DNA of 64,000 nt from Heterobilharzia americana (lineage: Eukaryota; Platyhelminthes; Trematoda; Strigeidida; Schistosomatidae). Numbering within the stretch: the stretch's first letter is position 1; every line of letters starts with the position of its first letter. Below, one piece after another: positions 22,385-62,039 of this stretch. The notes below the pieces were generated by a model. It made no database searches. It saw only the letters and a list, made by a program, of their open reading frames with translations, and was not told the origin of the DNA. The stretch is from contig OX104128.1 in the NCBI GenBank assembly GCA_944470555.2, forward strand, positions 58,721,257-58,785,256, in the 5' to 3' direction. Position numbers and translations under genes: made by a program.

Positions 22385-25262
22385 CTTGGGTTCCTAGTGG
22401 AACACAGGGCTTCAGTAGCACGTCTCCAGTGCACTCTTCAGACCTGGCACTACGACTGTCCCGAAGCTTTCATTTCTTGCTCATATAATCTCCTCCATGT
22501 CACTCTAGCTTCTAACGCCCAACTCGTCACTTCTCATTCAGATTCCACTCGATGACCTAGCTTGGCTCCTGATGCCCCCAGTCGGCCTCCTCAGTGTATG
22601 CAGAATCCAGTTCATCTTCATTTTCTTCTGCATATTTGTTGAGCGATAAGTTCTTGGTTGGTTCGTTGCCAGAGTTTCTTGTTGCTTATTCTTATTATTC
22701 TGGTAATCCATCTGATCTTCAGTATCGAGCCAGAGTAGGCAGTTGTTGATGAATGTCTGTAGTTTGTTTGAAGTGCTTTTCTCGGCGTGTCGAGTTTCTG
22801 AACCATATAGCAGCACTGACTTGACTGAATTTGTGTTGAAAATCCGGATGTTGTTCTTTGTGCTGAGTGGAGTGCAGTAGATCTCCACAGTGATTTCAGG
22901 CTAATGAAGGCTTCTCTTTCTGTCTTTCCGATCCTGGTTTTGACATCTTCATCTGTGCCGCCTGTAGGTGAAACGGTGCTGCCTAGGCAGATGAAAGAGA
23001 CTACTTTCTTTAGATTTCTCCCGTTAATGGTGATTGGTGCCTCTTGCTGTTGATGCTGTTGTTGGTTGGGTATCTTCATCACCTCTGTCTTCTCTACGTT
23101 CACTTGAAGGGAGTCTCGTCTTCGCTGCTTCTTCTTCCAACTTGTTAGTTTTCGCCTGTAGATCTTCGAGTTTGTGAGATAAGACATTAGACCAAAAACA
23201 TCGGCGACGAAATCAAAATCTTCTAGGCTCTTTTGAACGGTCCCGCGTATGCCCCTCTTCTTCCGCCTCACTGTTTGCTGCATGATCCTGTCCAACCCAC
23301 CATAATCAGGAAGATGATCGGTGATAGTAGGCGACAGCATTGTCTTACTCCTGTCTTCACTTTACAGGCGTCACTGAGTTGCTTTCCATTGTGGATCACT
23401 TGGCATGTGGCGTCGTCATATAGTTGTTGAATGAGGTTGATAAAGGTTTGTGACACTGAAACCGTGGTGTTGGGGCAGTTTCCAACTTACTTCTCTGTCG
23501 ACGCTGTCGAAGGCCCCTTCAAAATCGATGAAGTTGAGCTAGAGTTGAGTTGACTGCCATTCATGCTCTATTCTATTCTATGATGTGATGCGCAGCGTAG
23601 CGTTGCAATTTGGTCCGCACATGATTTGTTCTTCCTGAATCCAGTCAGCCAGCCAGCCTGTTCCGGTTGTAATTTTGAGTCCAGAGAACCTTTTAATCTC
23701 TCCAGGATGATGCGACATAATATACTGCTTGTGGTATACAGGAGTGGAGCATGATTCCACACCAGTTCTTGCAAAGACTTAGGTTTCGCTCCTTTGAGAG
23801 TTTGACGAAGTAGTTCTTCTTCCGGTAGGTAGGTACCTTCCCTTCCCTCCTTCCAAACCTTCTGCATTAGTGGTGTTAGCATGTCCAATGTTGTGTCTGC
23901 GTCTGTTTCCAGTGCTTTTGTAGGAATTCCATCTGGTCCTGCTGCTTTCCTGAATTTCAGCAACTTTATGGCGTTGAGGACATCACTTTTGCTTTTGTCA
24001 GAGGTCTCGTGTTCACTGGTAGTTCTGAGGCTGGTCTGCTGGTGGTATTTCTGGACGAGTTGCAGGTGGTAGTGGTGGTGGTGGTCGATTCAAGAGTTTT
24101 TTTGAAGTGGCCAGCCTACCGTTTCCTTTGTTTCTCCTCTTTGGCGGTAATTAAGTTCCCTTCACTATCTTTCATTGGTTTCATGTGTGTTGATCTCTTC
24201 CCTTCCAGGTAGTAATCTGGTTATTTGATATGATGTTATCAGGTCTCTCTCTCTCTCACCTGCAGCCTGTTCTGCTTCACCTGCCAATGTGTCGTGGAAG
24301 TGTCTTTTGTCTTTGTGCGCACTCCTCTTCACTTCTTTATGTGTGTATGAGTGTGTGTGTGTGTTCAGTTTCTGTTTTCGTTGTTCATCCCTGCCTGCAC
24401 TGCACTGCACTGCACCATTTCTCCTTTGCTTCACCATCTTCCTCTCCCTCTTCTATCAGTTTGCATTTGTCCGCCGAGATCCATTCTTCTTCCTGCTTCT
24501 TCTTCCTTCTTGATACGGTTATGCAGGTTTCCTTCCCTTGTCTCTTTCAAAGAGTTCCAGTGTTCTTCCACACAGGTTTCTTCAGTGGTGTTGCTTAATG
24601 TCTCCCATTTTATCCTGATGGCTGAGGTGAAGATGTCATTTGAAGTTTTGTCCTTCTAATCACCAAACCGGTGAATGCACAGAAGTCTGCAAACAGTTCT
24701 CCATTCTCATTTGTTTCACCGAGCGCTTCTCGACCCATGGTTAGTTCTCTTCCTGTGTTGTCCGCTCGGAGTTTGGCATTCATGTCGCCCATTAGAATTT
24801 GTTTGTCGCCAACTGAGGACTTGTCGAGTGCTGATTGCAGCTGTCTGTAGAATTCCTCCTTCTTCTCATCATCTGCATTATTTGTAGGTGTGTAGCGTAG
24901 CATTGTATGACTGTGACTTTCCTTCCTTTTGAGTTGAACCTTGCTGTCATTATCCTGATGCTGAAGGAGATTGGTTGCCACTGCATGAGAGAGAGCCTTC
25001 AATGCTGTTGGGGACATCATGATGGCCACTCGAAAACTCAGTGTGCTCATGATTGTCGTGTGGGTGACAATATCGGAGTAGATTATTGACTCTCCAGTTG
25101 ACAGTTTGGAGAGTCCACTTCTATTCCATTCCATCTGCTTTCTCAGATTGCTAACACTTTAATGTCATACCTCCTCATCTCTTAGGCAATCTGGGCAGCG
25201 TTGTTAGGTTCGTACATGGTGCGGACATTCCATGTCTTCACGTTTACTTTTGCCCTCATCGA
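22385..25262 (-). pseudogene. Near full-length RTE-like (SR2-like) retrotransposon
   Basis: Reading the minus strand: KVNVKTWNVRTMYE endonuclease start near 25240; APE-type endonuclease to about 24610 with ILMGDMNAKLRADNTG and GETNENGELFADFCAF; RT fingers (RKAAGPDGIPTKALE, 23963 on) with QAG and SCADQIATLR; FINLIQQLYDD and VKTGVRQ (about 23440-23340); a damaged FADD box (FVADVFGL) near 23200; VNVEKTEVMKIP; LGSTVS.TGG; VLLYGSET; LWQRTNQE. The 3' end at about 22385 has the family terminus. Non-LTR elements of this clade encode one endonuclease-RT protein for target-primed reverse transcription. Several frameshifts and the altered active site show it is dead. It is the most complete copy here. 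Confidence 0.88.
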
Positions 25263-29589: not shown

Positions 29590-29860
29590 TCGACGTAGTC
29601 ACTGCAAGAGTATGTACAACGTCTATTATAGTCACTTCAGTTTAGAGGAATTCATAAATTGTATTGATTGGTCACGTGAGTACAACCGACCAATCAATAC
29701 ATATAACTCAGTCCTACAGGAGTTGAATCGCGGCCCGAGTAGCTCAGTGGTAGAGTTTCTGACTACAACATAGGTTTGAATCTAACGTTGAACATCAGTT
29801 CCATGGAGGTCGCAGATACTCCTTGCTAATGAGTGGTGACATTCTCCGTACCAACTTTTA
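29590..29860 (+). mobile_element. Family 2 repeat with tail-to-head join
   Basis: 'attgattggtcacgtgagtacaacc' (terminal segment of family 2 in inverted sense, then 'ccaatcaata' in direct sense) precedes 'tcctacaggag', the head with A-box 'tagctcagtggtag' and a damaged ribozyme (CTAATGAG, no GAAA) at about 29822. Confidence 0.55.
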
Positions 29861-29984
29861 ATCCGATAACAAACTGCTAACTTGTATACTAACGAGTTCA
29901 TGTAGAATACCGGAGAAAACATGACACCAGTGCGACAAAATAGTTTATCTAGTAGTGTAACTACTTACAAACTATCAGTAGTAC

Positions 29985-30350
29985 TAATGATGGATCGTGG
30001 CTAGCAGTGGAATCCAGGATATGCATTTCGTCCTATTTGGGACTCGTCAGCTGGATGTTGTTCTCGCCGGGATTCGAACTCGGGAGCGATCGCTTAAAAC
30101 GCCAGGGGGTTTCCACTACACCACCGAGCCACGATAGCCACTTCTTGTGCGATGGGTATAGTTTTTAGTATAATTGTTTTTATATGATATCGTCTTTGAT
30201 CTGACCGAATTGATCTGTCTCTATTGGCATATGGGCTCCTGTGCGGATGCCTCGATATTGCCTGCGTTCTAATTGTATTAATGATGGATCGATCACTTCG
30301 GTCCAAGCAACGACGGTATCATATAAAAACAATTATACTATCAATAGTAC
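29985..30350 (-). mobile_element. Family 1 (Sm-alpha-like) element with hammerhead
   Basis: The best family 1 copy. On the minus strand from about 30290: 'gcaggcaatatcgaggcatccg', 'agagacagatcaattcggtcagatc', 'cacaagaagtggctatcg', a tRNA-like head ('gtggctcggtggtgtagtgg' to B-box GAGTTCGAATCCC), 'atccag', the ribozyme, 'ctggattccactgctagccac'. Bases 30292-30345 repeat part of the element in the opposite sense, creating a long hairpin with 30165-30212. Sm-alpha repeats are known in schistosomes as short retroposons transcribed by Pol III whose transcripts self-cleave. Confidence 0.85.
30012..30056 (-). ncRNA. Hammerhead ribozyme, family 1 (Sm-alpha type), core intact
   Basis: On the minus strand: stem I ATCCAG/CTGGAT (6 perfect pairs), core CTGACGA, stem II GTCC/GGAC with loop CAAATA, core GAA, a short stem III with a 2-nt loop, cleavage triplet ATC. 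This matches the published Schistosoma hammerhead in stem II and core. The ATC triplet in place of GTC should still cleave under the NUH rule, probably more slowly. Confidence 0.88.
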
Positions 30351-30581
30351 TACTAACAGTGGGTATTTATTTTCCACTTAATCTTCAAATGAAGAAGTAA
30401 TATTGAAGAAGAATTCTACTGTCTTGGAAGGGAGGTGGATGACTGTGACAATTATCAAGTGTTGAAGAAAGAAATTGTCAACAATCAGTTAAAATTAGAG
30501 ATACACAAGTTATACACACGGCTTATTTCATCAATCAACCTTAATTTATTCACCTTTTGGAGACCAGTCGAAGAGTGGGAC

Positions 30582-30894: not shown

Positions 30895-31375
30895 TGATAC
30901 ACACTAACATCTATCAATGTGCACCGCAATGTTGAGCCTGGTGACCACATTGTTATTTATAATCTTTAGGATTCGATCTGCACTCAGATCTAGTCAAGGT
31001 GAAATTGATTGTTCTCCCGTGACTAATCATGTAAGCCAGTCGAAGAGGAGGTGAATCGCAGCGCGAATAGCTCAGTGGTAAGGTGGCGGACTACACGAAT
31101 GAGTGACGCTGGTTCCAACCTTCGGTGAGATATCACCTCCGTCTACGTTTCAGATACACCTTGCTCACGAGTACCAGCAAGCAGAAAACCTAGGTCGACA
31201 CCTTCCTGTTCATTGTCTTCAATTAACTAACATCTACCAATGTGCACCACGATGTTGAACTTCCTAGCTTAGTGGTCACATTGCAAATATGATCGATGAA
31301 ATTTAGTGTGCACTGAGAACTAGACAACATCAAAGTTAGTAGCTATCTCCTGATCGATTAGTGTACATTAAGGAA
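30895..31375 (+). mobile_element. Family 2 element, tail plus complete second unit (partial dimer)
   Basis: 30900-31020 is a family 2 tail ('ctaacatctatcaatgtgcaccgc', 'tctagtcaaggtgaaattgattgtt.tcccgtgac'). It runs directly into a second unit: head with A-box 'tagctcagtggtaa', ribozyme at 31188-31235, then the same tail again to about 31375. The ribozyme reads CTCACGAG (G5 lost), so it is inactive. 30775-30880 also has a tRNA-like minus-strand stretch. Confidence 0.75.
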
Positions 31376-31910: not shown

Positions 31911-32065
31911 AACTTTGAGCGGTGGATCACTTGGCTTGTGTGTCGATGAAGAGTGTAGCCAACAGTGTGAATTAATGTGAATTGCATACTGCTTTGAACA
32001 TAGATATCTTGAACGGATATTGCTGCTACGGGATATCCTTTGGCAACGTCTAGCACACTTAGTTG
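31911..32065 (+). rRNA. 5.8S rRNA pseudogene
   Basis: Contains nearly invariant 5.8S strings: GAGCGGTGGATCAC at the start, GTGTCGATGAAGA, GTGAATTGCATACTGC and TTTGAACAT, but with changes at positions that are normally invariant (for example TTGAACGGA for TTGAACGCA). It cannot pair normally with 28S. Confidence 0.88.
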
Positions 32066-34609: not shown

Positions 34610-34930
34610 TAGTCGTCCACTGTTTCTTGATAGCCCGAAAGATAACCTTTCGTATCTGACCAATTCTATCGGCTTGAGGATCCGATGGAATCGACTGAAC
34701 TAAATAATCTAATCTATCGAATTCCGTGTAATGACTGCGAGGCCAAGTACATAGGTCAAACTAAACGGTCGGGGTCAGTCAGAATAGCCGGACATAAGAA
34801 TTTAACTAATTATGGAATCACAGACCCGAATAACACCAGCAATCTAGAAAAAACGGCTATTGCATTGCATACATGCATTAACACTCAACAATATAGAATA
34901 TGTGGGACAAAACGGAAGAAACGGAAGACA
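34610..34930 (+). pseudogene. Penelope-like element C, GIY-YIG endonuclease fragment
   Basis: A 95-residue open frame from 34685 begins ESTELNNLIYRIPCNDCEAKYIGQTKRSGSVRIAGH. This is the PLE-type GIY-YIG start (IYRIPC..C..KYIGQTKR), with catalytic-region residues intact in this short piece. NLEKTAIALH follows. The same lineage is on the minus strand at 40.4-41.6 kb. Similarity to it breaks near 34925 and appears to resume at 36222. Confidence 0.82.
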
Positions 34931-35232
34931 ACTCCGCGAGGGAATGAGAAGTATGAACAATTGGAATGGTAGTGGTTGCATATGGTACTCATTGCACTAA
35001 CGCAGCCATTTGCAAATGTCTTGGTTTCTACTCCATTCCTGTCTTGATTTACTTTTGACCGGCTCTTCATACACTTTATCAGCAGCATCCCCTGTAATAC
35101 GCCTGTGTTATCCCCTGTGTTGCTCTTGGCAGAAACCCTGCCCATTGCCGGTAATTCCCTATGATTCCTGCCACCCTCTCGATATATACTACTTATATCC
35201 GTTGTTATAAGCAAAGCCCACTACAAAACTAC
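34930..35232 (-). repeat. Unclassified dispersed repeat, copy 2
   Basis: Reverse-complement relative of 4061-4345. It encodes the related MLITTDISSIY peptide on the minus strand and lies where PLE C is interrupted. Confidence 0.5.
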
Positions 35233-35439
35233 TGTCTTGGTTGTATTACGCCTCTGAGCTGGGTTGTTTAAACGTGAAGCTTTCATCATCTTCCTAGACG
35301 ACATCATCAGCACTAACTTCAGTGTGAATTGAGCTGTGAATATCTCTGCATAAGGGATTTGGTAGCTTGGCCTGATGAACTGGTTCCCTTTGATTGTTGT
35401 GTCATTGACTGAATAGTTTTTTCTATTGGCTGTCCCTCT

Positions 35440-36220
35440 GCTTCACCTCTGACCTCTACATCCTTTATCATTATTCTCATTCGTTGATACATTGCGTCTA
35501 TTTCTATACATCTGTTGATTGCTGACTGATTGACCTGAATGCCAAGCTTTTAGGAATTCTCTGATATTCTTTGTGTTTCCTCTCTCCGTCCAAAATTTCT
35601 TCATTGTCCAATTTGAATTCATGTCCACAATTATCCACGTGCATTGAAATGAGTGATGAAATGTCATGGCGTTTAATAGCCAATTGGTGCTCATGTAGAC
35701 GAAGGCGAAGAGGGTGACCACTTCGTCCAATGTAGTGTTGACTACAGTTATTGTAGTTGATTTCGTAAATGATATTCAGTTTGTCTTCTCTGCTTGTCGC
35801 ATCCTTCGGTCTGCATAATAGTGTTTGGAGGGAATTTGTTGGTTCATGAGCCAGCCACACCAATTCCAAGTGGTTTCAGTAATCTTGTCATCATTTCTCA
35901 TATATTCTTTATGTATGGTGGAATGATGCGTTCACCGATTTCTGTCGATGACTTTGTAGTTGATGATGTATGGTGTGGGCATGTTGTGATAAAGTTTCGT
36001 GGGTAGCCGTTCTTCTTTACCATGGACATCAAGTAACTTTCTTCATTTCTCCTTCAAGTTGTTGTACTGCAGTGTGTTCTCCTTCCTTTGAATACAGTCT
36101 GCACGCAACTGATTTTGTGAGTTGTTGGATTGTTGCTATTGTAGTTGAGGATTTGTTCAGTGTGTGTTGGCTTCCTGTAAACTTGGATTTCCAGCTTTCC
36201 AGCATTTGTTGTACTGACTA
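35440..36220 (-). pseudogene. Penelope-like element D, RT end to GIY-YIG endonuclease
   Basis: Minus strand: LEIQVYRKPTHTEQILNYNSNNPTTHK (36180-36100; written here as two motifs, VYRKPTHTEQ and NYNSNNP), then a frame change, RLLKPLGMELVWLAHEPTN, LLCRPKDATSREDKLN and IIYEINYNNCSQHYIGRSG (GIY-YIG core), RLHEHQLAIKR, CGHEFKLDNEEIL, and FLKAWHSG at the end. The lineage differs from A, C and E. The endonuclease frame at 35504-35869 is open for 121 residues, so this copy is younger or less damaged than most. Confidence 0.85.
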
Positions 36221-36221
36221 G

Positions 36222-36530
36222 AACAATACAATTAGATGGGGAGAGAGGGAGAGAGAAATTGACTACTGAATCTTTATTTATCCAATTAACACCCAATATA
36301 TATAATAAAAATGACTCAACAACTGGAAATATGGAACATTTTACTCCCAATAGAAAGAAAGAACATGAGATGAGAGAACTATAAAAATCAGATTTTGAAA
36401 GTAGTGTGATTACATTGATGTGATTATGAGCAGTGATGATCTATGCTCGAAACATCGTCATCAAGTAAATAATACTAGATCACTCACTGTGTTATACATC
36501 AAATAAACAAATCTAATATGGAATTATATT
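36222..36530 (+). pseudogene. Penelope-like element C, C-terminal tail and 3' UTR
   Basis: Matches the minus-strand copy at 39700-40400 but without the 366-bp insertion found there, so it shows the empty site. It contains the frame EIWNILLPIE ending in a stop, then 'gtgtgattacattgatgtgattatgag' and 'gtaaataatact'. With 34610-34930 it probably forms one PLE interrupted by D and the repeat between them. Confidence 0.65.
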
Positions 36531-38170: not shown

Positions 38171-38639
38171 AAGATTTTTGTAAACATTTCATTGTATATA
38201 CCACAGCTTCTTCAGAAGAATATGTCCTTTTTTGAATTCTCAGACTTATTAAAATTCATTTCTATACATTTAAATTATTGAGATGTTTACCGCTTATCTT
38301 TTATAATGAATGAATTTCTCGGTATAAAGAAAAGAATTAAATTTTCAAAAACTCCAAATTAGATTAAAGAATGAACAAACTGAGGTAAATCCACTTAGCA
38401 AACGTTTACACGTTTATGCAATAGACATTAAGTCGCACCTGTTATATGAGGCTTCTCTGGTTGCATGAACCTTACTAGATGGGTATAGGCTCGCACCTAT
38501 GGATTCATTGGTGGAAATCAAACACATAAACCAATCACCTACGGCTTCATAATCAAACTGTAGAGATATTTATATCTTTTCATAGATTTAATGAAATATA
38601 TATCATCTCTTCTGAAAATATTATTGAATTTTGAGCGAG

Positions 38640-38828
38640 TTGTTGGGATTCGGAAATATTTTAAGTTGTTATTCATCGTAGGCTGACATCAGTTGGAGGA
38701 AGAAAGGAAAACTGGGAGCATTGGACAGTTGTTTCGTCCTAGTATGGGACTCCTCAGCAGTGCACACCCACGACCACGCCAGAGACCGAACCTGCGACCT
38801 TCAGGTTCCGTGGCCAGCACGCTACCAT
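38640..38828 (-). mobile_element. Family 3 repeat with intact hammerhead, minus strand
   Basis: Tail, ribozyme and tRNA-like B-box in minus orientation. It stops at 38828, exactly where a plus-strand copy begins within the ribozyme 5' stem. Confidence 0.75.
38718..38764 (-). ncRNA. Hammerhead ribozyme, family 3, core intact
   Basis: Minus strand: stem I GCACTG/CAATGC (one mismatch), core CTGAGGA, stem II GTCC/GGAC (4 bp) with loop CATACTA, core GAA, stem III ACA/TGT with a 2-nt loop, cleavage site GTC. All invariant positions are present. It is the cleanest family 3 ribozyme together with the one at 5729. Confidence 0.85.
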
Positions 38829-38970
38829 CGCACTGCTGAGGTGTCTCATACTAGGACGTAACAGCTGTCTAATGCTCCCAAGTTTCATTTGTTCCTCCAA
38901 CTGATGTCACTCTACGATGAATAACAACTTGAAATATTTCCAAATCCCCACAACTCCCTCAAAATTCAGT
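38829..38970 (+). mobile_element. Family 3 repeat, 3' half, plus strand
   Basis: Starts GCACTG, ribozyme CTGAGGTG and CGTAAC (A9 and A13 lost), tail ends 'cctcaaaattcagt'. Back to back with the minus copy. Confidence 0.75.
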
Positions 38971-39345: not shown

Positions 39346-39975
39346 CTTACATTATCAAAAATCAATCCGTACAACGGTTTCTATGATTCGTTTTACTGTC
39401 GGTTATAAAGTCCAAAGTGATCTTCGAATATGTGAATAACAAACTGTAACACATCTTTCATGTAATGACATCTTGTTTCAGATATTTTCTCCTCTCATAT
39501 AGTTATTCATTCATTAGACTGAAATGAAAGTTGACATCCAGCATAAAATAATTTAATATAAAGTTAAATAAGGCGATCAACTACTTATTAGTAGTAGTGT
39601 AACCTATAAGGTAAACGTTAATGAAGAATTGCCACTCGCTATTGTACTGTCGTTGGTAGTCAATTTGTTTTAACTTAAGTGTAAAACTTGGGCACTGTAG
39701 AAAAATACAAATCCATATATCAGATTTGTTTACCACACACATAGTGTGATAGAGTATTATTTACTGGATGACAATGTTTCCAGCATAAATTATCACTACT
39801 CATAATCATATCAATGGAATCACACTACCTTAGACATGTGATTTTTTACATAGTTATGTCACCTGATATGAGTTGTTTTTATTGGTAGTAAGATATTCCA
39901 TATCTCTGGTATAGGTGTTGCCTCATTTCTATCACATGTGTTGAGTTGGGTGTTGGCTGATTCGACGAACAAAGA

Positions 39976-39986
39976 TTCAGTAATCA
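39976..39986 (+). repeat. Target-site duplication, left copy
   Basis: TTCAGTAATCA, identical to 40353-40363. The uninterrupted relative near 36270 has one copy of the similar 'actactgaatc' sequence on the opposite strand. Confidence 0.85.
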
Positions 39987-40352
39987 TGTATTGATTGGTC
40001 AGGGGAGTGAAACCAATTTCATGTTGTCTAGTCCTGAGTACAGACCGAATTCTATCCATCATATTTGCAACATGACAACCAAGTTAGGAAGTTCAGCATC
40101 GCGGTGCACATTAGTAGATGTTAGTTGGTTGGAGGCAATCGGCAGGAAGCCCTGGACCTAGGTTTCGTGCTTTTTGGCACTCGTCAGCAAGGCGTATTTG
40201 CGACCTCGACGGAACTGATGTCCCGCCTGAGATTTGAACCCGCGTCACCCAGTGTTGTAGTCAGCGACTTTACCACTAAGCTATTCGGGCCGCGACTGAC
40301 CTCCTGTAGGACTGGCTAACATCTATTGATTGGTCACGGGAGTGCAACCAAC
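39987..40352 (-). mobile_element. 366-bp family 2 hammerhead element inserted in PLE C'
   Basis: Bounded by an 11-bp direct repeat (TTCAGTAATCA on the plus strand), with the empty site seen at 36222-36530. On the minus strand: terminal segment 'gaccaatcaata', 'tcctacagga', tRNA-like head (A-box 'tagcttagtggtaa', B-box GGTTCAAATC), a complete hammerhead, then a tail ending again with 'ctgaccaatcaata'. About 30 bp at the two ends are alike ('ttggtt.cactccc.tgaccaatcaata'), so the insert is one unit of about 335 bp plus a terminal redundancy. This is what insertion of a copied circular or tandem RNA would leave. It has no protein and must use another element's machinery. Confidence 0.88.
40149..40193 (-). 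ncRNA. Hammerhead ribozyme, family 2, complete
   Basis: Minus strand: stem I GCCTTG/CAGGGC (6 pairs, one G-U), core CTGACGA, stem II GTGC/GCAC (4 bp) with loop CAAAAA, core GAA, stem III ACC/GGT with a 2-nt loop, cleavage triplet GTC. No core position deviates. It is the most perfect ribozyme in the window and should self-cleave if transcribed. Confidence 0.9.
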
Positions 40353-40363
40353 TTCAGTAATCA
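40353..40363 (+). repeat. Target-site duplication, right copy
   Basis: TTCAGTAATCA, identical to 39976-39986. Confidence 0.85.
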
Positions 40364-41904
40364 ATCTCTCTCTCTCTCTCCATCTAATTATATTGGACTT
40401 AGGTACAGTGAATTTATCCCACTCTATTGTATTATTGTGTGTTAATGCATACATGCATGCATTGCAATAGCTGAGCTTTTTCTAGATTAATGATCCTATT
40501 AGGGTCTGTCATTCTACATTTCGCTCAATTCCTATGTTCCCCTATTATAACTGACCCCGATAGGCTAGTTTGACCTATGTACCTGACCTAACAGTCATTG
40601 GTACATTAGATTATTTCGCCTAATTGGATCCATCAGATGCTGAAGCCAGTCTACAAAGCTTATCTCTGAGTGAATTCGTACGTTTAAATATCACCTTAAT
40701 TCCAGCTTTGTTGAGGATCCTACGTAAAGTTTTTGATGTACCTCCCTTATAGAGTAACATAATGGAGACTGTGAATTCCTTTCTACTCGTGCTGTCGTTA
40801 TTATTCGTACTCATGTTACTGTTATCATTTGGTGTGTTGTGTGTTTATGCGAATTTCTAAATAAACTGCGGATGATAGTTAGTAACTATTAGCTTTTCTC
40901 TTAAACGCTTTATTTGTTTGTTTAGATCCTTGCACCAACTAGTCGGTTTTCCAGCTGTATCGCTCAGACACTTGACTAAGCCTGTCTTCATTGACTGATA
41001 TTGGATGAGATGACTTGAAGTCTAGATACATGTCGCAATGTGTTGGTTTTGTTTAGACGGTAGTATTCAACCCACCATCTGTCCTTCGTTTTATCCTGCA
41101 ACTCTCCTTGTTCATTTTCTACCTGGTAAGTGAATCAAGTTTCCCCTGTTACTGAGTTTATATATATGAGGAAATTGTCGAAATGTTTCGATTTCAACAC
41201 GATGAATGTGTCATCCACATATCGCCACCATATCTTAGGTTCATGATTATACGCTTATTAGGCCATGATTTTGCAACTATCCACAAATATGTCTGCTACG
41301 ATTCAAGATATTGGTGATCCAATTGCTACTCCTTCTGTTTGTTTATATATTTTGTCCTGAAACTTGAAGACTGTGGAGGTGAGACACAACTGTACGCCTA
41401 ATATGATCTCATCAGGGGATGTCTTAGTTCTATGAGTAGGTTCTGAGTTAATATTTAGTTAACTTCTGACTGCCTCCTGTGGCATATTGATTGGTATTTT
41501 AGTGTAACGACTTGTTACATCGAGGCTAACCATTTTTTCCATCCTCTCCTATATGCATTTAGACTCCTTTAGAGACAGTTTTAGTCCGAGTATTAGATCG
41601 GGTATAAACTTCCTAATTTTATTCATGACCATATCTAAAAGTTTTTTTTTTTGAAATAGAATAATGATTGGTGAGTATATCCTTAAAAATCTGGCCAAAT
41701 TCGACTCATACTGAATATCTTATGCAACAAAAATTACACTATTGAAATTATACTACTGTATATTGAGAAATTAGACAAAAGGGGATTACATTACTGAAAT
41801 AGTTGAAAAGTAATCACGATTCATAGCAGTTCCAGAATGTTCAGATCAACATGGAATAATTGATCATCACCGATATGGTAACGAATGGAACTGGTTCAAA
41901 TTAC

Positions 41905-42429: not shown

Positions 42430-43230
42430 AAAGATAGGGTGGTTCGTGTTCACTATGTATTCAAGTATAGCGCTCCTTTGTAACCACGCAGGACAGTACT
42501 CTTGAACCCTTTTGGATAGTAATCGTATTAAACAACCTATATACCTGTCTCCACAAGATCATGTGAATTGATATATGCACATAGAAGGGGTCAGATGTGA
42601 AAGTTTCTTCTTTGAGCTGTTGGGTCGCAAGAGAATACTAGTCTCAGCGCTGTTGCAAAGAATGTTCTCCTTGAGGCGTTTTGATATCCTCCTTTTTAGA
42701 GTGTCAGTGGCAGAATCACCTTTGAAGTTTAGATTCATATAAAGTATCTGTTTTGCCACAGTGATTAGGTTCTCTTTGCAAGGTTCAGGCTTGATGTTTT
42801 TGTCTATGAATCGTGATGGGAATCCTTTTCCAACTAGGATGTTCTTACGAATAGAGATTTTGTCTTCTAACACATAGGGACTGTAGATTCGTCTAATAAG
42901 AGTGACAAGAGATATAATCTAGTTTCGCTTACCACTCATAGGGACCCAACTATTAAAGTTCATCAGATGACCATTCCATATTGGTTTTCTGTGAATTGAT
43001 CTACTCAATGTTCCATCAGCTTTGGAAATGAAATCGCTGAAATATACTTTTTTTCCCTTTCATATCCTGTTGGGTATATATCACAAATTCATCATCTATT
43101 TAATGGTATACTGACTTATGTCAACCAATTAGAGACAGACTTTAGTTCATCTGAACAATTGTTGCCCTCTGTGTAAGTTGAATTTATCCCATCTACAAAA
43201 ACAATGATGAAGTCACCTTTAAACAAGAAA
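42430..43230 (-). pseudogene. Penelope-like element F, RT end to GIY-YIG
   Basis: Minus strand: ADGTLSRSIHRKPIWNGH and NFNSWVPMSGKRN (about 43030-42930), then a 104-residue open frame (42873-42559) with SIRKNILVGKGFPSRFIDKNIK, TVAKQILYMNLNFKGDSATDTLKRRI and SMCIYQFT. In the next frame SCGDRYIGCLIRLLSKRVQEYCPAWL follows, the GIY-YIG region, and NTNHPIF near 42450. The RKP, NFKGD and CGDRYIG motifs mark a PLE distinct in sequence from C and D and closer to A/B. Frameshifted. Confidence 0.82.
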
Positions 43231-47189: not shown

Positions 47190-47795
47190 AATAAACTTAG
47201 GACAAACTATCACCTCTTCAAATGCCAGATAACTAACCACAAGAATAGTGTACCACGGTAACGCCATCTTATCGGATTGATCAAAACACCGGATGGTCAT
47301 TTCTCTGGTATGGAGCTGAAGTTATCAGCTATTTATCTTGATAAATTGAACTCATATAGCTGACTTAGACGAATCAGTATGCTTTAACTTACTAACACAT
47401 ATGCTGTCACTAAGTCTGAGGACTGTTGAAACTATAATTTCTTCATGACTTTCCAATATCGGCTATTGATGTGAGACTTATGAACAAGAGTACACCATCA
47501 GGTTGGCATCATTTAGGTGTTATGAAACAATGGTACACTTGCCATCGTCTTTAGAATGTTTGTACTTGCACTGGAGTCAAGTGTAGTCAATGGGAGTCAG
47601 CGTAATAAAAGCTTACGACTACTTTTATCTACTGAAACTTGATACCTGTCAAAAATCCCAACATCCCTTAGATTCGAGGCTTTGTAGATTGGTAAATTCC
47701 CAGTACAATTCAGGCAAATCCATTGCTAATTTTATCACTTTAAGTGATTTGCTTGATATGAATAAAAATTTACTACATTTCAAGAATATATAACT
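47190..47795. other. Unassigned
   Basis: No family similarity or convincing coding sequence. Confidence 0.35.
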
Positions 47796-47799
47796 GAAA

Positions 47800-48115
47800 G
47801 ACAGATAATATCGTGGCATTCTCGCATGAACCCATATATGAATAGAGACCGATCAAGTCGTCCCACTAAACGATGGGATAATACAATCAATAACATTAAA
47901 ACTACACCCATTGCACAAGAAGTAGGCAGTATGATTCGGTTATCTAGTAGATAATGCTCTGTCGTTTGAAGTAACCAGTCCCAGGTTCGAATCCCAGTAG
48001 GGACAACATAGTTCACTCAAAGGTAGGTACATCAAGACTGACAAATCTTAAATAGAACAAAACGGTCATCAAACTGGATTCCATTTCTAGCCACTAACCA
48101 CTGTAAATAAATAAT
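47800..48115 (+). mobile_element. Family 1 (Sm-alpha-like) element, ribozyme decayed
   Basis: Full order of the family: 'gataatatcgtggcattc', 'tagagaccgatcaagtcg', 'acacccattgcacaagaagt', a head with B-box AGGTTCGAATCCC, then 'actgacaaatcttaaatagaacaaaacgg' in place of CTGACGAG...CGAAAT, and 'ctggattcc...ctagccactaaccac'. G8 and G12 are lost. Confidence 0.75.
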
Positions 48116-50085: not shown

Positions 50086-50640
50086 CGAAAGACAGGAGTA
50101 AGACAAGACAAGGTTGCCACCTAATATCACTGATCATCTTCCTGATTGTCAGCCACTCGACTGAACTTGACTCCATCATACAACAAATTGTGAGAAGATG
50201 GACATACCCTGTTTGAACGATGAAGAAACACTAGGAGATTTGGACTGCACCACCGATGATGATTTATGTTTAATGTCCTGTCTCACAAACTCGAAGATCT
50301 ACAGACGAAAACTAACAAGTTGGCAGGAGAGATAGGGCAGGAGAGGACAGGACAGGACAGGACAGGGCAGACCAGGGCAGACCAGGGAATGGCAGCGAAG
50401 ATCGGACTTCCTTCAGGTGAACATAGAGAAGACAGAGGTGATGAACATACACAAGCAACAAAAACAAGCAGGAATCAACATCAGTGGGAGAAATCTGTAG
50501 CAAGTTGTCACTTTCATCTACCTACTGAGGAAGCATCGCATCGTCTCAACTACAGGCATCAGCGGTGGTGGCACAGATGAGGACGTCATAGTCAGGATTG
50601 GAAACACAACAAGAAAGGCCTTCCTTCAGTAATGTGTGGA
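50085..50640 (+). pseudogene. RTE-like fragment at the start of the tandem array
   Basis: 'gacaggagtaagacaagacaaggttgccacc' corresponds to VKTGVRQGC; LIIFLIVSHSTELDSIIQQIVRR follows; then a degenerate FADD region (DCTTDDDLCLMSHKLEDLQTK) and a GGACA/GGGCAGACCA short-unit array at 50335-50393. After that come VNIEKTEVMNIHKQQK and RIGNTTRKAFL, ending in unrelated sequence near 50640. The downstream WNP region is missing here but present in the last copy of the array. Confidence 0.8.
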
Positions 50641-51344
50641 GACTGGTGTGTAGATGTATTCTACTCCACTCGCTTATATTCTTGAGGTTAGTGTGTCAAT
50701 CGCTTCTCTTATCTCATCCATTAATCAGTCTGTTTGCTAGTAAATTGGCGTACATCAACAAAATCACTAGTTCATGAATCTGAAGTCCAAATATTTTACA
50801 CCAAATGTTGCATTACTCTGGTAACCTTCATCGTAATGAACTATAGATGCATTTCCCGGTACTCTTTTGTTTAAAAAGGGTAATATATTGACCATGAAAT
50901 CTAAGTGAGCAGCTAATATGATTACGGTGAACGAACAGTGACATATCACAGATTTAAATGCCGAGTGGGTGAAACCGTTAGTGATTTGAGTTAAGGTAAG
51001 TCGTTTTCTGTATCTGAGTGTCTTAACTCATTTGTTGGACTATCGGACAATTAACTCATATTCCCCTCGTTGGAATCCTGCCTTGCAATAGGTTTCCATC
51101 ATTTCATCTTAAATAAGCAACTCTTATAAGTAACACCTATTACGTCAGGCAGTCTAGTTGATGGTGTAATCATCTGACTTTTTGTAAAGATCCAAATTAT
51201 AGTGTTGATTACCTCAGCTTCACATTAACCCTTAAATAAGAAGTTTGAAAGAGACTTAATTGGAGTATGAGTGATAGTTTCCAATCATTTTCAATAAAGT
51301 TATTAAACAATCATAAGATATATTTAAAAACTTCACGCTACATT

Positions 51345-51625
51345 ACTGCTCAGTGCTCCTTAGTGATAAGATTCAAGATGGATACCTGGAAGTTCTAATG
51401 ACAGAAGCCGTGACCTCTTGAGTCAGTATCGGCCGATAGTGAAGCAGTTTTCAAGTGAAGAGCTTGTTGGATAGTTACACTATATTTTGAACTGGCAGAA
51501 GTTGAAAGATGTGGACTATTGAACTGTTGTTGCTGAATGATTGATGCGTTTGCAATCAGACCTGAGCTTATCATAGGTGAATACTTCTGAAGAGTCGCAT
51601 CCTGGGACAAAATAACAACAATAAC
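51345..51625 (+). mobile_element. Family 3 repeat, degenerate (in unit 1; copy in unit 2 at 55809-56089)
   Basis: Has 'tgacagaagccgtgacctcttgagtcag', a head remnant, and a ribozyme remnant 'cttctgaagagtcgcatcctgggacaaaataa' (CTGAAGAG kept, G12 changed). No tail. Confidence 0.55.
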
Positions 51626-52884
51626 ATATTCAAGTGTACGTCATTCATGACTACAAAAAGAGAACATCGTTACTTGAAAATGCCATCAGGTAATAATCGT
51701 GGATTTAGAACCCCCGTGATAATGATGATGATGGATCATTTAATATCAATTGAATTAGGTCATAGTTTAGTACTAGCAACAAATTTCTGCTGTAAAATTA
51801 TTACACATTGACAAGGTGTATTTAAGGGTTAATCCAAAGAAGTATTCAGTTAGGAAGAGAATAGATCGAGGGAAAGAGGGGCTATTAGATCTCTCCTTTA
51901 CTCCGTCATTTGGTGACTTCATGATGGTCTATCTGAAGTTGATTAATGTACACTTGGTTAATGATCAATTCAGAGTTTATTCCAAAAAATCTCTGGATAA
52001 CATTTTTTAATCAATGATGATAAAACAATAGAGTTCCATGTATCTCTAGAAATCTTTAATTCATCATCATGTTGTAGACTTCAAGTCCAGTTGGAATGTG
52101 TTAACTTTGTTTTTAGATTTTCAGCTGTTCTTAAAAACACGAAAATAAATGCTCCACTTTAAGTGTCACCACATGGAAAATAGACTTGGTATTCTACACT
52201 ATTCAACAGTTCTGTGGAAGTACCTTTTAATAAGTCTAAAGTTCAAGGTTAATTAATACCTTTCCAAAGCTAGTCGAAGAATAATCTTTACTGCATTTCT
52301 GCAGTTTACTTTCTTGATGTACTTTCTAACTCATCAGAATGTCAAAGACAAGCTCTTGTTGTTAACAGCATTTAGTTGCTCTTGTAGAAGTAAGTACATG
52401 ACAGTAACAAACACTTTTCATCATGATTAATCTGAAGAAATTATATCAGTTGACAAATCTATTCTGGAGAATATTTTGCCCTACTTTAACGTAGTGCCCA
52501 CAGAAAGTTCGTTTGATATTATATATAAGGTGACAGTAGGTCATTAAAATTATTTCCACTGAACACTGTTTTTTATCCCCAGAACTTTAGACTTGAAACG
52601 TCCTACACTTATATGTACATATTGAGGAATTATGCATCAACAATGTAAAGAGCTCGATTATCATTGTATTATACACTTGAGGAAGTCAATTCAGAAAAGT
52701 TTTAAGAATTCAGTTCAGAATAATACATTATCGAAATGCCTATGCAACCACCCTCTAATTGCAGTTTGGATGATGTAAAGAATGAATTTTATGAGAGACT
52801 GTCAACTTTTTTTACAGAAAGAAAAACTTTCAAATGTAGTCACAATAGCAGGTTCTGTTAATGCTTAGGTAGGGAAACTGAGTC

Positions 52885-53010
52885 AATCGGAAAGGCATCT
52901 TGAAGGTATTTGCGGAATCCTATGCCAACGAATCGACATTGGTGATCGTAGTTAGTAGTACTATACTATTCAGGCTATGACTGACCCCACGTAGCATCAG
53001 ATTATGTACA
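52885..53010 (-). mobile_element. Family 2 head remnant (in unit 1; copy in unit 2 at 57349-57474)
   Basis: The reverse complement shows 'gtcagtcatagcctgaatagtatag', like the family 2 head, with no recognisable ribozyme. Confidence 0.4.
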
Positions 53011-53409
53011 AGAAAACAAGGTCAGACAAGACTTCATGACGACTGTTGTAAAAATCCAGTGTTCTGTACTGTCACTTCAATTGCCTTAGTGACAACATCG
53101 CATACTTAGTCGGTAGACTTCACTCAGTGCTGAGCGTTTAGGCGTATCCAGCAATGTCGAGATTTTAGTCATTATGGCAAAAGCTATAAAGGATTCTTCA
53201 ATTGTATGCATTCCTTCTTTGAAATCATATCAAAATGGCGATAATGCTGCCGTTTTACTGAGACGCCATGTTTTGTAAACAAAGAATATTCTTTTCGATA
53301 ACTTCTCCAGGTCCAGCAGTTATGTGTACATACTGAGGAATTATGGATCAACAATATTGGGATTTTGCAAGTATATTGAAAGAACACAGAGGAATGTATC
53401 CATCCAGTT

Positions 53410-53550
53410 CACTTAGTCTATCCTGAAGAATATGTGTCTGAAAGAAGATAACATTCTAACTAGCGCAATCACCAAACATCTCATAGACACAGGACATCAG
53501 GTTGAAACTTTGAGTGCTGTTCCCACACACGACTTTTTTGAATTCATTTC
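53410..53550 (+). pseudogene. PLE endonuclease fragment (in unit 1; copy in unit 2 at 57874-58014)
   Basis: One frame reads LTSAITKHLIDTGHQVETLSAV, the PLE motif (I.KHL..TGH.V) also seen as GTGHQVD in element A at 9440. Upstream frames are unclear. Confidence 0.65.
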
Positions 53551-53554
53551 AGGT

Positions 53555-53880
53555 TGCAATTCATAATAGACTTGCATCAATTTAAGGAACATTGGAAATC
53601 CGGAAGCAGTGGACAGCTGTTTCATCCCACTAGTATGGGAGTCCTCAGTAGTGCCCACTTATGGCACCGCCAACCCACCCCACCAGGGATCGACCTAGGA
53701 CCTGCAGGTTCCGTGACCAGCACGTAACCTGAAGGTTCATGGTTCAACCCTTGGCGGGGTCGTGTGTGTGCACTGCTAAGGGGTCCCGTACTAGCGGGAC
53801 GAAACAGTTTTCCAGTGCTCCCAGCTTTTCCAATGTTCCTTGAACTGTTGTCAGTCCATACTGAATTCCAACCTGAAGTT
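53555..53880. mobile_element. Family 3 inverted pair with hammerheads (in unit 1; copy in unit 2 at 58019-58344)
   Basis: A minus-strand half (53560-53725) joins a plus-strand half (53725-53880) at the tRNA-like head. The minus ribozyme (53606-53654) keeps CTGAGGA, GAAAC and GTC with a 4-bp stem II but has mismatches at the stem II base and in stem I. The plus ribozyme (53777-53815) reads CTAAGGG with TTC, so it is inactive. Confidence 0.7.
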
Positions 53881-54479
53881 TCTTATGTCTTAATAACTAT
53901 TACGCCAGATATTAGTAATTTGTTCAATGTTCAATGTTTACACGAAACTATTGACTTCAGTGTCATGATAGTGATGGTTTTTATGATATCAAGTAATTGT
54001 ATTTTAACAGTAAATAGATGAGTTCAAAATCTGTGACACTAAATTGAATAAGTTGGTATTGTTTTTATCGGAGTCAGTTTCCATGGTGAAGAGGACTATG
54101 AAGAAAACTGTCGTGTAGCATTAGAGACGACTATGGTCTAAAATTGTCACCTGTGCTCTTTTCTATTGGTTAAATGCATTGGCTACCAATTCCATGGGAA
54201 ATGTAGTTGACATTTTGATTAAAGCACCAAAAAACAACTATAGCTTATTCGATTTGCACTATGCTTAAAGACAAGATACATGAACAAAGAGTTTTGCTTA
54301 TTATGATCCAGAATAAATTGATGCGACTCAACGAGAGTCAATATTCACTAAACACAGAATCAAAGCCTTTGAATATCCCTGTCTAGTGTGTCTATAGTTT
54401 TCTTAGTGTAGTGAAACATTAGAAAAATTTGGAAATCACTTGAAACTGGAATGTTTAATACATCGTTAACTGAGGACGT

Positions 54480-55104
54480 ATTCAACAGATATATGATGAT
54501 GTTACATGAAAAGTGATCCACAATGGAAAGCTCACTCATGGATTCGCAGCTAAGATAGTTTGATAGGCAAGACGAGGTTACAATTTAATATCACTGATCA
54601 TCTTCCTGATTGTCAGCCACTCGACTGAACTTGACTCCATCATACAACAAATTGTGAGAAGATGGACATACCCTGTTTGAACGATGAAGAAACACTAGGA
54701 GATTTGGACTGCACCACCGATGATGATTTATGTTTAATGTCCTGTCTCACAAACTCGAAGATCTACAGACGAAAACTAACAAGTTGGCAGGAGAGATAGG
54801 GCAGGAGAGGACAGGACAGGACAGGACAGGGCAGACCAGGGCAGACCAGGGAATGGCAGCGAAGATCGGACTTCCTTCAGGTGAACATAGAGAAGACAGA
54901 GGTGATGAACATACACAAGCAACAAAAACAAGCAGGAATCAACATCAGTGGGAGAAATCTGTAGCAAGTTGTCACTTTCATCTACCTACTGAGGAAGCAT
55001 CGCATCGTCTCAACTACAGGCATCAGCGGTGGTGGCACAGATGAGGACGTCATAGTCAGGATTGGAAACACAACAAGAAAGGCCTTCCTTCAGTAATGTG
55101 TGGA
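54480..55104 (+). pseudogene. RTE-like sequence spanning the unit 1/unit 2 junction
   Basis: 54485-54585 is the RTE segment upstream of the VKTGV region ('gatgttacatgaaaagtgatccacaatgg', compare 44530), continuing in register into the unit 2 start. So the junction at 54586 joins two RTE pieces at matching positions, as expected for unequal recombination between RTE copies. The rest repeats 50122-50640. Confidence 0.8.
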
Positions 55105-58100
55105 GACTGGTGTGTAGATGTATTCTACTCCACTCGCTTATATTCTTGAGGTTAGTGTGTCAATCGCTTCTCTTATCTCATCCATTAATCAGTCTGTTTG
55201 CTAGTAAATTGGCGTACATCAACAAAATCACTAGTTCATGAATCTGAAGTCCAAATATTTTACACCAAATGTTGCATTACTCTGGTAACCTTCATCGTAA
55301 TGAACTATAGATGCATTTCCCGGTACTCTTTTGTTTAAAAAGGGTAATATATTGACCATGAAATCTAAGTGAGCAGCTAATATGATTACGGTGAACGAAC
55401 AGTGACATATCACAGATTTAAATGCCGAGTGGGTGAAACCGTTAGTGATTTGAGTTAAGGTAAGTCGTTTTCTGTATCTGAGTGTCTTAACTCATTTGTT
55501 GGACTATCGGACAATTAACTCATATTCCCCTCGTTGGAATCCTGCCTTGCAATAGGTTTCCATCATTTCATCTTAAATAAGCAACTCTTATAAGTAACAC
55601 CTATTACGTCAGGCAGTCTAGTTGATGGTGTAATCATCTGACTTTTTGTAAAGATCCAAATTATAGTGTTGATTACCTCAGCTTCACATTAACCCTTAAA
55701 TAAGAAGTTTGAAAGAGACTTAATTGGAGTATGAGTGATAGTTTCCAATCATTTTCAATAAAGTTATTAAACAATCATAAGATATATTTAAAAACTTCAC
55801 GCTACATTACTGCTCAGTGCTCCTTAGTGATAAGATTCAAGATGGATACCTGGAAGTTCTAATGACAGAAGCCGTGACCTCTTGAGTCAGTATCGGCCGA
55901 TAGTGAAGCAGTTTTCAAGTGAAGAGCTTGTTGGATAGTTACACTATATTTTGAACTGGCAGAAGTTGAAAGATGTGGACTATTGAACTGTTGTTGCTGA
56001 ATGATTGATGCGTTTGCAATCAGACCTGAGCTTATCATAGGTGAATACTTCTGAAGAGTCGCATCCTGGGACAAAATAACAACAATAACATATTCAAGTG
56101 TACGTCATTCATGACTACAAAAAGAGAACATCGTTACTTGAAAATGCCATCAGGTAATAATCGTGGATTTAGAACCCCCGTGATAATGATGATGATGGAT
56201 CATTTAATATCAATTGAATTAGGTCATAGTTTAGTACTAGCAACAAATTTCTGCTGTAAAATTATTACACATTGACAAGGTGTATTTAAGGGTTAATCCA
56301 AAGAAGTATTCAGTTAGGAAGAGAATAGATCGAGGGAAAGAGGGGCTATTAGATCTCTCCTTTACTCCGTCATTTGGTGACTTCATGATGGTCTATCTGA
56401 AGTTGATTAATGTACACTTGGTTAATGATCAATTCAGAGTTTATTCCAAAAAATCTCTGGATAACATTTTTTAATCAATGATGATAAAACAATAGAGTTC
56501 CATGTATCTCTAGAAATCTTTAATTCATCATCATGTTGTAGACTTCAAGTCCAGTTGGAATGTGTTAACTTTGTTTTTAGATTTTCAGCTGTTCTTAAAA
56601 ACACGAAAATAAATGCTCCACTTTAAGTGTCACCACATGGAAAATAGACTTGGTATTCTACACTATTCAACAGTTCTGTGGAAGTACCTTTTAATAAGTC
56701 TAAAGTTCAAGGTTAATTAATACCTTTCCAAAGCTAGTCGAAGAATAATCTTTACTGCATTTCTGCAGTTTACTTTCTTGATGTACTTTCTAACTCATCA
56801 GAATGTCAAAGACAAGCTCTTGTTGTTAACAGCATTTAGTTGCTCTTGTAGAAGTAAGTACATGACAGTAACAAACACTTTTCATCATGATTAATCTGAA
56901 GAAATTATATCAGTTGACAAATCTATTCTGGAGAATATTTTGCCCTACTTTAACGTAGTGCCCACAGAAAGTTCGTTTGATATTATATATAAGGTGACAG
57001 TAGGTCATTAAAATTATTTCCACTGAACACTGTTTTTTATCCCCAGAACTTTAGACTTGAAACGTCCTACACTTATATGTACATATTGAGGAATTATGCA
57101 TCAACAATGTAAAGAGCTCGATTATCATTGTATTATACACTTGAGGAAGTCAATTCAGAAAAGTTTTAAGAATTCAGTTCAGAATAATACATTATCGAAA
57201 TGCCTATGCAACCACCCTCTAATTGCAGTTTGGATGATGTAAAGAATGAATTTTATGAGAGACTGTCAACTTTTTTTACAGAAAGAAAAACTTTCAAATG
57301 TAGTCACAATAGCAGGTTCTGTTAATGCTTAGGTAGGGAAACTGAGTCAATCGGAAAGGCATCTTGAAGGTATTTGCGGAATCCTATGCCAACGAATCGA
57401 CATTGGTGATCGTAGTTAGTAGTACTATACTATTCAGGCTATGACTGACCCCACGTAGCATCAGATTATGTACAAGAAAACAAGGTCAGACAAGACTTCA
57501 TGACGACTGTTGTAAAAATCCAGTGTTCTGTACTGTCACTTCAATTGCCTTAGTGACAACATCGCATACTTAGTCGGTAGACTTCACTCAGTGCTGAGCG
57601 TTTAGGCGTATCCAGCAATGTCGAGATTTTAGTCATTATGGCAAAAGCTATAAAGGATTCTTCAATTGTATGCATTCCTTCTTTGAAATCATATCAAAAT
57701 GGCGATAATGCTGCCGTTTTACTGAGACGCCATGTTTTGTAAACAAAGAATATTCTTTTCGATAACTTCTCCAGGTCCAGCAGTTATGTGTACATACTGA
57801 GGAATTATGGATCAACAATATTGGGATTTTGCAAGTATATTGAAAGAACACAGAGGAATGTATCCATCCAGTTCACTTAGTCTATCCTGAAGAATATGTG
57901 TCTGAAAGAAGATAACATTCTAACTAGCGCAATCACCAAACATCTCATAGACACAGGACATCAGGTTGAAACTTTGAGTGCTGTTCCCACACACGACTTT
58001 TTTGAATTCATTTCAGGTTGCAATTCATAATAGACTTGCATCAATTTAAGGAACATTGGAAATCCGGAAGCAGTGGACAGCTGTTTCATCCCACTAGTAT

Positions 58101-59049
58101 GGGAGTCCTCAGTAGTGCCCACTTATGGCACCGCCAACCCACCCCACCAGGGATCGACCTAGGACCTGCAGGTTCCGTGACCAGCACGTAACCTGAAGGT
58201 TCATGGTTCAACCCTTGGCGGGGTCGTGTGTGTGCACTGCTAAGGGGTCCCGTACTAGCGGGACGAAACAGTTTTCCAGTGCTCCCAGCTTTTCCAATGT
58301 TCCTTGAACTGTTGTCAGTCCATACTGAATTCCAACCTGAAGTTTCTTATGTCTTAATAACTATTACGCCAGATATTAGTAATTTGTTCAATGTTCAATG
58401 TTTACACGAAACTATTGACTTCAGTGTCATGATAGTGATGGTTTTTATGATATCAAGTAATTGTATTTTAACAGTAAATAGATGAGTTCAAAATCTGTGA
58501 CACTAAATTGAATAAGTTGGTATTGTTTTTATCGGAGTCAGTTTCCATGGTGAAGAGGACTATGAAGAAAACTGTCGTGTAGCATTAGAGACGACTATGG
58601 TCTAAAATTGTCACCTGTGCTCTTTTCTATTGGTTAAATGCATTGGCTACCAATTCCATGGGAAATGTAGTTGACATTTTGATTAAAGCACCAAAAAACA
58701 ACTATAGCTTATTCGATTTGCACTATGCTTAAAGACAAGATACATGAACAAAGAGTTTTGCTTATTATGATCCAGAATAAATTGATGCGACTCAACGAGA
58801 GTCAATATTCACTAAACACAGAATCAAAGCCTTTGAATATCCCTGTCTAGTGTGTCTATAGTTTTCTTAGTGTAGTGAAACATTAGAAAAATTTGGAAAT
58901 CACTTGAAACTGGAATGTTTAATACATCGTTAACTGAGGACGTATTCAACAGATATATGATGATGTTACATGAAAAGTGATCCACAATGGAAAGCTCACT
59001 CATGGATTCGCAGCTAAGATAGTTTGATAGGCAAGACGAGGTTACAATT
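54586..59049 (+). repeat. Tandem duplication, unit 2 (4464 bp)
   Basis: Identical copy of 50122-54585 with the same internal features. See unit 1 and the paired coordinates given there. Confidence 0.92.
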
Positions 59050-61639: not shown

Positions 61640-61765
61640 TTACGTTTAACAGATCTTGCCTGACCTAGGTTTCGTGTTTTCTAGCATTCATCAGTAGCGT
61701 CTTCAGCTGTAATGCGGTATGCATATTTTCGATAGCTATAGACCTAAATACTAAATTGATTACAT
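61640..61765 (-). mobile_element. Family 2 fragment with core-intact hammerhead
   Basis: Minus-strand ribozyme at 61657-61699: CTGATGA, GAAAC, stem III ACC/GGT and GTC intact, but stem II (ATGCTAGAAAACAC) pairs poorly. The head beyond it is degenerate. Confidence 0.6.
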
Positions 61766-61942: not shown

Positions 61943-62039
61943 TGTTGTAAAGCTACATGCTAATTTGTATTGATGAACTAAAAGAGAAAACCTTTGACAT
62001 TTATTCCAACTCTCTTCAACAAACTCCTGTATATAATTA

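Follow-up and report, generated by a model that had tools for sequence, protein, structure and literature searches.

A tRNA-headed hammerhead retroelement with redundant ends in Heterobilharzia americana, and a candidate Penelope-like mover

How does a 366-bp piece of DNA that carries a self-cleaving ribozyme come to lie between two copies of an 11-bp word inside another element, and which enzyme would have put it there? We address this question using one insertion, which we call copy A, in a 64-kb stretch of the Heterobilharzia americana genome (the window; 64,000 nucleotides), with the features under study listed in Table 1. The preliminary description of this DNA had claimed an insertion with an 11-bp target-site duplication (TSD), redundant ends of about 30 bp and no protein of its own, and our analysis confirmed all three: TTCAGTAATCA is present exactly on both sides of the 366-bp insert, the two ends have 28 bp in common of which 26 are identical (E 3e-8), giving a period of 335 bp, and no open reading frame of at least 110 amino acids overlaps 39987-40352, an insert of just 366 bp. 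Identical 11-mers at a spacing of 377 occur at a single position within the 64-kb window, and a composition-based estimate for a chance pair is 2e-4 (441 placements). The flanks of copy A, joined without the insert, align to the reverse complement of a sequence at 36 kb, where the target word is present once. The empty site proposed at this position is therefore retained in part, as the left flank (39670-39986) is 72% identical to the 36-kb sequence by blastn, and a site so diverged is a paralogue and not an allele.

Table 1. Positions in the window of copy A, its target site and host, and related hammerhead elements
Feature	Position	Strand	Remarks
Copy A, hammerhead retroelement, 366 bp	39987-40352	-	335-bp unit + 31-bp redundant tail
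Target-site duplication, left copy, TTCAGTAATCA	39976-39986	.	exact, 11 bp
Target-site duplication, right copy, TTCAGTAATCA	40353-40363	.	exact, 11 bp
Empty target word, single occurrence (TTCAGTAGTCA) in the host paralogue	36260-36270	.	
End repeat, 5' copy, predicted stem-loop	40329-40352 (e1-24)	-	fold -9.1 kcal/mol
Redundant tail, 3', ending ...CAATCAATACA	39987-40017 (e336-366)	-	terminal position common to copies A, B and C
tRNA-like head, Pol III A box to B box	40231-40283	-	pattern match
Type I hammerhead, complete core	40149-40193	-	Rfam RF00163, 42.7 bits (gathering 34)
Stem III palindrome ACCUAGGU	40156-40163	-	equals its own reverse complement, loopless
Decayed GIY-YIG-like endonuclease remnant of host element	40413-40665	-	YIGQT motif, stops
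Copy B, ~1.4 units, tandem register	30899-31370	+	5' end near unit 224-228
Copy C, inverted tail head-to-head with direct arm	29660-29907	+	
Sm-alpha-like element, inverted tail at 5' side	29987-30336	-	15/16 flanking direct repeat, 29971-29986 and 30337-30352
Sm-alpha-like element	62030-62449	+	one 315-bp period + ~105 bp
Family-3 elements head-to-head, both arms at same long 3' terminus	38625-38968	.	

Copy A reads on the minus strand, which corrects the sense orientation given earlier, and we number it e1-e366 in this direction. The stem-loop predicted for the 5' end repeat has a z of -2.06 on 35 nt and -3.27 on 30 nt, and its counterpart at the 3' end folds at -7.1 kcal/mol (z -1.44); this 3' end carries neither poly(A) nor a simple-repeat tail. 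The Pol III-type head that had been claimed was recovered, with an A box at 40283-40273 (e70-80) and a B box at 40240-40231 (e113-122) on the minus strand, and these boxes are the only match in the window, against 0 expected from shuffles, to a pattern drawn up after the sequence of copy A had been inspected. A tRNA gene at the head of copy A was considered and rejected, as ARAGORN calls none. Between the 5' end of copy A and the A box lie 69 nt, and no TTTT is present on the sense strand of copy A. The hammerhead likewise proved to be free of core defects, as described, with a complete CTGACGA...GAAA core and a GGTC cut site, and with cleavage predicted between 40155 and 40154, i.e., after e198. 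Stem III had been read differently and is a loopless palindrome; the predicted cofold of two hammerheads, in which stem III has 8 bp, is at -39.2 kcal/mol, and a single hammerhead is at -15.9 kcal/mol. A hammerhead scan of viral contigs gave 0 matches.

The region to the right of copy A (40413-40665, minus strand) aligns to 34640-34911 on the plus strand, which reads IYRIPCNDCEAKYIGQTKRSGSVRIAGHKN and which we take for the putative start of a GIY-YIG domain. The host copy at 40 kb has a similar minus-strand reading, but with stops, and copy A is located 3' of this decayed GIY-YIG-like reading in the same orientation as its host. The 36-kb host copy is split by a fragment in the opposite orientation (~34912-36209, minus strand) with YRKPTHT and HYIGRS motifs; these motifs and YIGQT are presumably marks of Penelope-like elements (PLEs). 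The nearest named relatives of the GIY-YIG-like frame are Heterobilharzia proteins (79%). Nearest protein matches from the window also include Trichobilharzia regenti (52%) and Schistosoma margrebowiei, and a further exon had no match. A GIY-YIG model matched the Heterobilharzia relative P0001 at 15.5 bits, below the cut-off of 22.6 (E 0.021), and GIY-YIG models gave no match to the window's own endonuclease frames. These motifs and the weak match of this relative make a decayed PLE, represented by its 3' part, the most likely host of copy A, in line with the Penelope-like host named in the preliminary description. The fragment at 34912-36209 would be a second Penelope-like fragment that lies within the first one's 3' region, near the site homologous to that of copy A, and this fragment and copy A entered the same host 3' region ~40-60 bp apart (n = 2). 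Two other protein remnants were seen in the window: a minus-strand frame at 42559-42918, ending LTPSMCIYQFT, which by eye resembles a further Penelope-like endonuclease in its linker and initial part and has no Pfam match, and a reverse transcriptase remnant at 22538-25158, LINE-like by eye, with no Pfam reverse transcriptase match in the frames tested.

Our search of the window with nhmmer and alignments identified six clear copies (A-F) of the family to which copy A belongs (family 2), with weaker matches outside these six at 19244-19385 (E 1.1e-6) and 61661-61697 (E 0.003). Only copy A, i.e., 1 of the 6, contains a complete hammerhead core. Copy B, the longest family-2 array in the window, crosses a unit junction and covers one whole unit beyond it. 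Its junction contains one end repeat and not two, which led us to reject a linear element of 366 bp with terminal repeats. In copy C, the inverted tail occupies 29660-29689 (E 0.0067) and the direct arm begins at 29688, matching to 29835 and weakly to ~29907; the outer end of the inverted tail is ...AATCAATACA, where copy A ends too, and the piece of copy C that matches the end-repeat stem-loop has a z of -0.03. The 3' unit position is identical in copies A, B and C, as defined by the TSD in A, by the junction with a non-matching flank in C and by alignment alone in B, so that these end statistics describe three of the six copies in one 64-kb window; the ends of the degraded copies D, E and F were not readable from alignments. 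The 5' ends differ, those of copy B and of two Sm-alpha-like copies lying ~26-35 nt past the ribozyme cut and that of copy A elsewhere. A recognisable TSD was found for copy A, and none for B or C. The preliminary description had held that copies with non-redundant ends and no TSDs would speak against it, and the outcome is mixed: the family-2 5' ends do vary and no further TSD was recognised, whereas B and C keep the 3' position of A, and B exceeds one unit. Near copy B we also observed a dispersed rDNA fragment, with 5.8S rRNA at 31911-32063 (Rfam, 89.5 bits) followed to ~33000 by what we take to be ITS2 and then the start of 28S. Copy F, at 14191-14640, is degraded and follows a ribozyme-like 3' piece (GCGTCCTGGATTCC), and is perhaps a hybrid with Sm-alpha.

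The anatomy of copy A places limits on the RNA from which it could have been copied. With the A box offset by 69 nt and no TTTT present, a solitary copy transcribed from its internal promoter could not have given rise to copy A, and an origin of the end redundancy from such a transcript was rejected, since the expected Pol III start is downstream of the 5' end of copy A. In addition, copy A spans the hammerhead cut site, and were a cleaved linear monomer to be copied from the tail, head and ribozyme would be missing, which points to a circle or an uncut multimer as the probable template. The circular or multimeric template claimed earlier is thus consistent with the anatomy, and either form fits. 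A substantial possibility, if the less probable one, is that the template was the uncut tandem transcript of a satellite array and that the hammerhead played no part in the insertion of copy A. Both copy B and the Sm-alpha-like copy at 62 kb exceed one unit and begin just 3' of the cut, Sm-alpha is described as forming long arrays in S. mansoni (W36.2, PMC8490949), and hammerhead mutants of a PLE are reported to insert in vitro all the same (PMC11167929). A single trip round a circle, on the other hand, would leave a unit with an exact tail, as in copy A, and would also leave ends such as those of the Sm-alpha-like copy at 47787-48109, whose aligned start and end fall at almost one and the same position of the unit.

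Two further hammerhead families are present in the window, Sm-alpha-like and family 3, both with the same head-plus-ribozyme layout. In the schistosome elements Sm-alpha and Sj-alpha, a tRNA-like head is likewise followed by a hammerhead. The Sm-alpha-like copies are located at 29967-30296, 47787-48109 and 62025-62448, with weaker ones in addition, and show weak homology to family 2 (E 3e-5 and 5e-4), and family 3 is present in many copies. Following overlap removal, 45 hits across the three families remained, and list neighbours less than 200 bp apart were compared. All 10 of the same-family neighbours on opposite strands in the 64-kb window are head-to-head (at 18.3, 20.7, 25.3, 27.8, 29.7, 30.0, 38.7, 42.3, 53.6 and 63.0 kb), and none is tail-to-tail (two-sided binomial p 0.002, which is post hoc because the pattern was noticed ahead of counting), with family 2 supplying one of the ten, copy C. 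Neighbours of different families gave 1 head-to-head and 3 tail-to-tail pairs. One weak arm each is present in 3 of the 10 pairs (25.3 kb, E 5e-5; 29.7 kb, E 0.0067; 42.3 kb, E 6e-4). A pair at 58 kb was dropped ahead of the count, being a duplicate of the 53.6-kb pair within a 4464-bp tandem duplication; this duplication, at 50254-59181, consists of two adjoining units that are 100% identical, with further matches from 59182, and reflects either a very recent event or an assembly effect.

In most of these pairs the arms differ in length and have the 3' zone in common. In family 3, the 3' zone is reached by 11 of the 12 arms in six pairs according to local alignment and by 10 according to HMM ends, i.e., by both arms in 5/6 or 4/6 pairs, respectively; the arms that fall short are the left arm at 18.2 kb, which ends at 263, and, by HMM, the left arm at 27.8 kb, which stops at 272. 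Family-3 3' ends are mostly near 312-318 or 343-346, ~30 nt apart, with strays at 322 (53.6-) and 332 (27.9-), and inner ends range from 1 to 274. Three insertions (18.6, 28.9 and 38.7 kb) show the long 3' end clearly, and in arm 28.2+ the alignment continues to 343, beyond the HMM end at 313. The family-3 reference is itself somewhat self-complementary, with a local score of 70; most arms score higher than this, and the short arm 42.36+, at 40, does not. Agreement between outer ends is weaker in the three Sm-alpha pairs, and inspection of the family-3 pairs by eye gave no convincing TSDs.

Which enzyme, then, would have moved copy A? We consider it probable that copy A is a non-autonomous, tRNA-headed, SINE-like element of the Sm-alpha-like retrozyme class whose circular or multimeric RNA was copied in trans, most likely by a Penelope-like enzyme with reverse transcriptase and GIY-YIG domains. 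Under this model, the hammerhead, probably as a dimer, would cleave multi-unit transcripts, which Pol III probably makes, into units of 335 nt, and ligated circles or uncut multimers would be reverse transcribed by the protein supplied in trans. The enzyme would start at a fixed site just 3' of the stem-loop inside the unit, copying beyond a full unit would leave the unit with a short tail, and often a second cDNA, started from the opposite strand, would be joined to the first head-to-head. PLE-type priming is favoured by three features, a 3' end that is fixed and carries no poly(A), a tail that may or may not be present, and head-to-head pairing within families, and on their basis the PLE or RTE machinery proposed earlier can be narrowed to the former. 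These features are reminiscent of the Anolis PLE protein, which is reported to start inside its RNA in an AC-rich stem loop, with two adjacent start sites bounding a 30-40-nt tail, and to extend both target strands, insertion persisting when the hammerhead is mutated (PMC11167929). They are also reminiscent of rotifer Penelopes, in which the tail is described as 31 bp long, the pLTRs as lying head-to-head and the TSDs, where there are any, as 8-10 bp, with the head-to-head copies ascribed to self-priming on an antisense template and not to priming of both strands (PMC3846280). Counting against the Penelope-like reading are a modest AC bias over the last 34 nt in family 2 (0.62 vs 0.53) and Sm-alpha (0.62 vs 0.55), with 0.74 vs 0.49 in family 3, uneven hairpin scores, with no stable hairpin in the family-3 tail (-1.3 kcal/mol), and the small number of mappable family-2 copies. 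Weighing on the same side are the differing 5' ends of copies A, B and C, a TSD recognised in copy A alone, window endonuclease frames that match no GIY-YIG model, the less concordant Sm-alpha pairs, the self-priming account of the rotifer copies and the insertion of Anolis hammerhead mutants. The window also offered no recognisable PLE 5' region with which start sites could be compared.

The same class of element might instead have been moved by a LINE/RTE-type enzyme, with the inverted arms as products of LINE twin priming, which we regard as rather unlikely. The window does contain a reverse transcriptase remnant at 11413-11817 (RVT_1, E 5.8e-5, below the curated cut-off), and an 11-bp TSD would suit LINEs too. 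In LINE twin priming, which accounts for 5' inversions, the inverted arm starts at internal positions, and arms that both start at the same 3' zone, as in most family-3 pairs, are left unexplained; the 3' end of copy A, without poly(A) or a simple-repeat tail, also argues against such an enzyme. Non-LTR elements such as LINEs are nevertheless named beside PLEs as possible helpers of animal retrozymes (PMC7229834). Still less probable, in our view, is that the head-to-head pairs arose by inverted duplication at the DNA level or by independent neighbouring insertions. The many tandem and nested repeats of the window would be in keeping with this, but independent insertions should give tail-to-tail pairs equally often, and most pairs have arms of unequal length with a common 3' zone. 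Extending the Penelope-like reading beyond copy A is a step we take tentatively, with the balance lying just short of even: three or more families of hammerhead SINEs in this fluke, differing in body, would owe their movement to Penelope-like proteins, with both target strands primed from a fixed internal site on circular or multimeric RNA.

If this extension is true, animal retrozymes, Sm-alpha among them, would be satellites of PLEs. The mover of animal retrozymes is presented as an open question in PMC7229834 and PMC7761336, and the copies in the window bear on it: PLEs are named as a strong candidate helper in the former, and the latter, a review, states that retrozymes seem to be without promoters and that no repeat motif reveals the mover. 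A tell for the mover may lie in the 3' ends, which are fixed, in the tail, which is optional, and in the head-to-head pairs, all of them countable in any schistosome assembly; for retrozymes, we came across no report of tails or head-to-head pairs in the open-access literature searched.

A schistosome element with these exact ends and a defined empty site had been put forward as possibly undescribed; its kind is already published: given the retrozymes and the SINE-like hammerhead elements of schistosomes, Sm-alpha and Sj-alpha (PMC2770079, PMC8490949), copy A is an animal non-LTR retrozyme built like Sm-alpha. Animal non-LTR retrozymes are described as having type I hammerheads, units of ~170-400 nt and, when present, TSDs of more than 4 bp (PMC7229834), and copy A is like them in its type I hammerhead (complete in 1/6 copies), 335-bp unit, tandem register, lack of an ORF and 11-bp TSD. 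It differs from animal retrozymes as reviewed in its Pol III boxes, thereby uniting a Pol III head with retrozyme anatomy, and in ends that point to a PLE, with a circular RNA as one candidate template here. The A and B boxes have the order and spacing of a tRNA-derived SINE, whereas neither end is that of such a SINE, the 5' end lying 69 nt ahead of the A box and the 3' end having no poly(A) or simple-repeat tail. With Sm-alpha and Sj-alpha, copy A shares the tRNA-like head followed by a hammerhead, dispersed copies and a comparable unit, that of S. mansoni W36.2/Sm-alpha being 332-335 bp (PMC8490949); close identity to Sm-alpha was not found in a comparison with the Sm-alpha-like copies of the window, and these copies have another ribozyme and body sequence and, at 62 kb, a period of 315 bp. 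Plant LTR retrozymes are similar in being non-autonomous, in carrying a hammerhead and in the circular-RNA model, and differ in their type III hammerheads, LTRs and 4-bp TSDs (described in PMC7229834 and PMC7761336). Unlike PLEs, copy A has no ORF, its 366 bp being without one for reverse transcriptase and GIY-YIG, and has a Pol III head and a 335-bp unit. Like PLEs, its family has a hammerhead (as in the Anolis element), a TSD of similar length in copy A, a fixed internal 3' end with an optional tail of 30-40 bp, seen in copies A, B and C and in the two 3' ends of family 3, and head-to-head inverted copies, as in all 10 pairs of the window.
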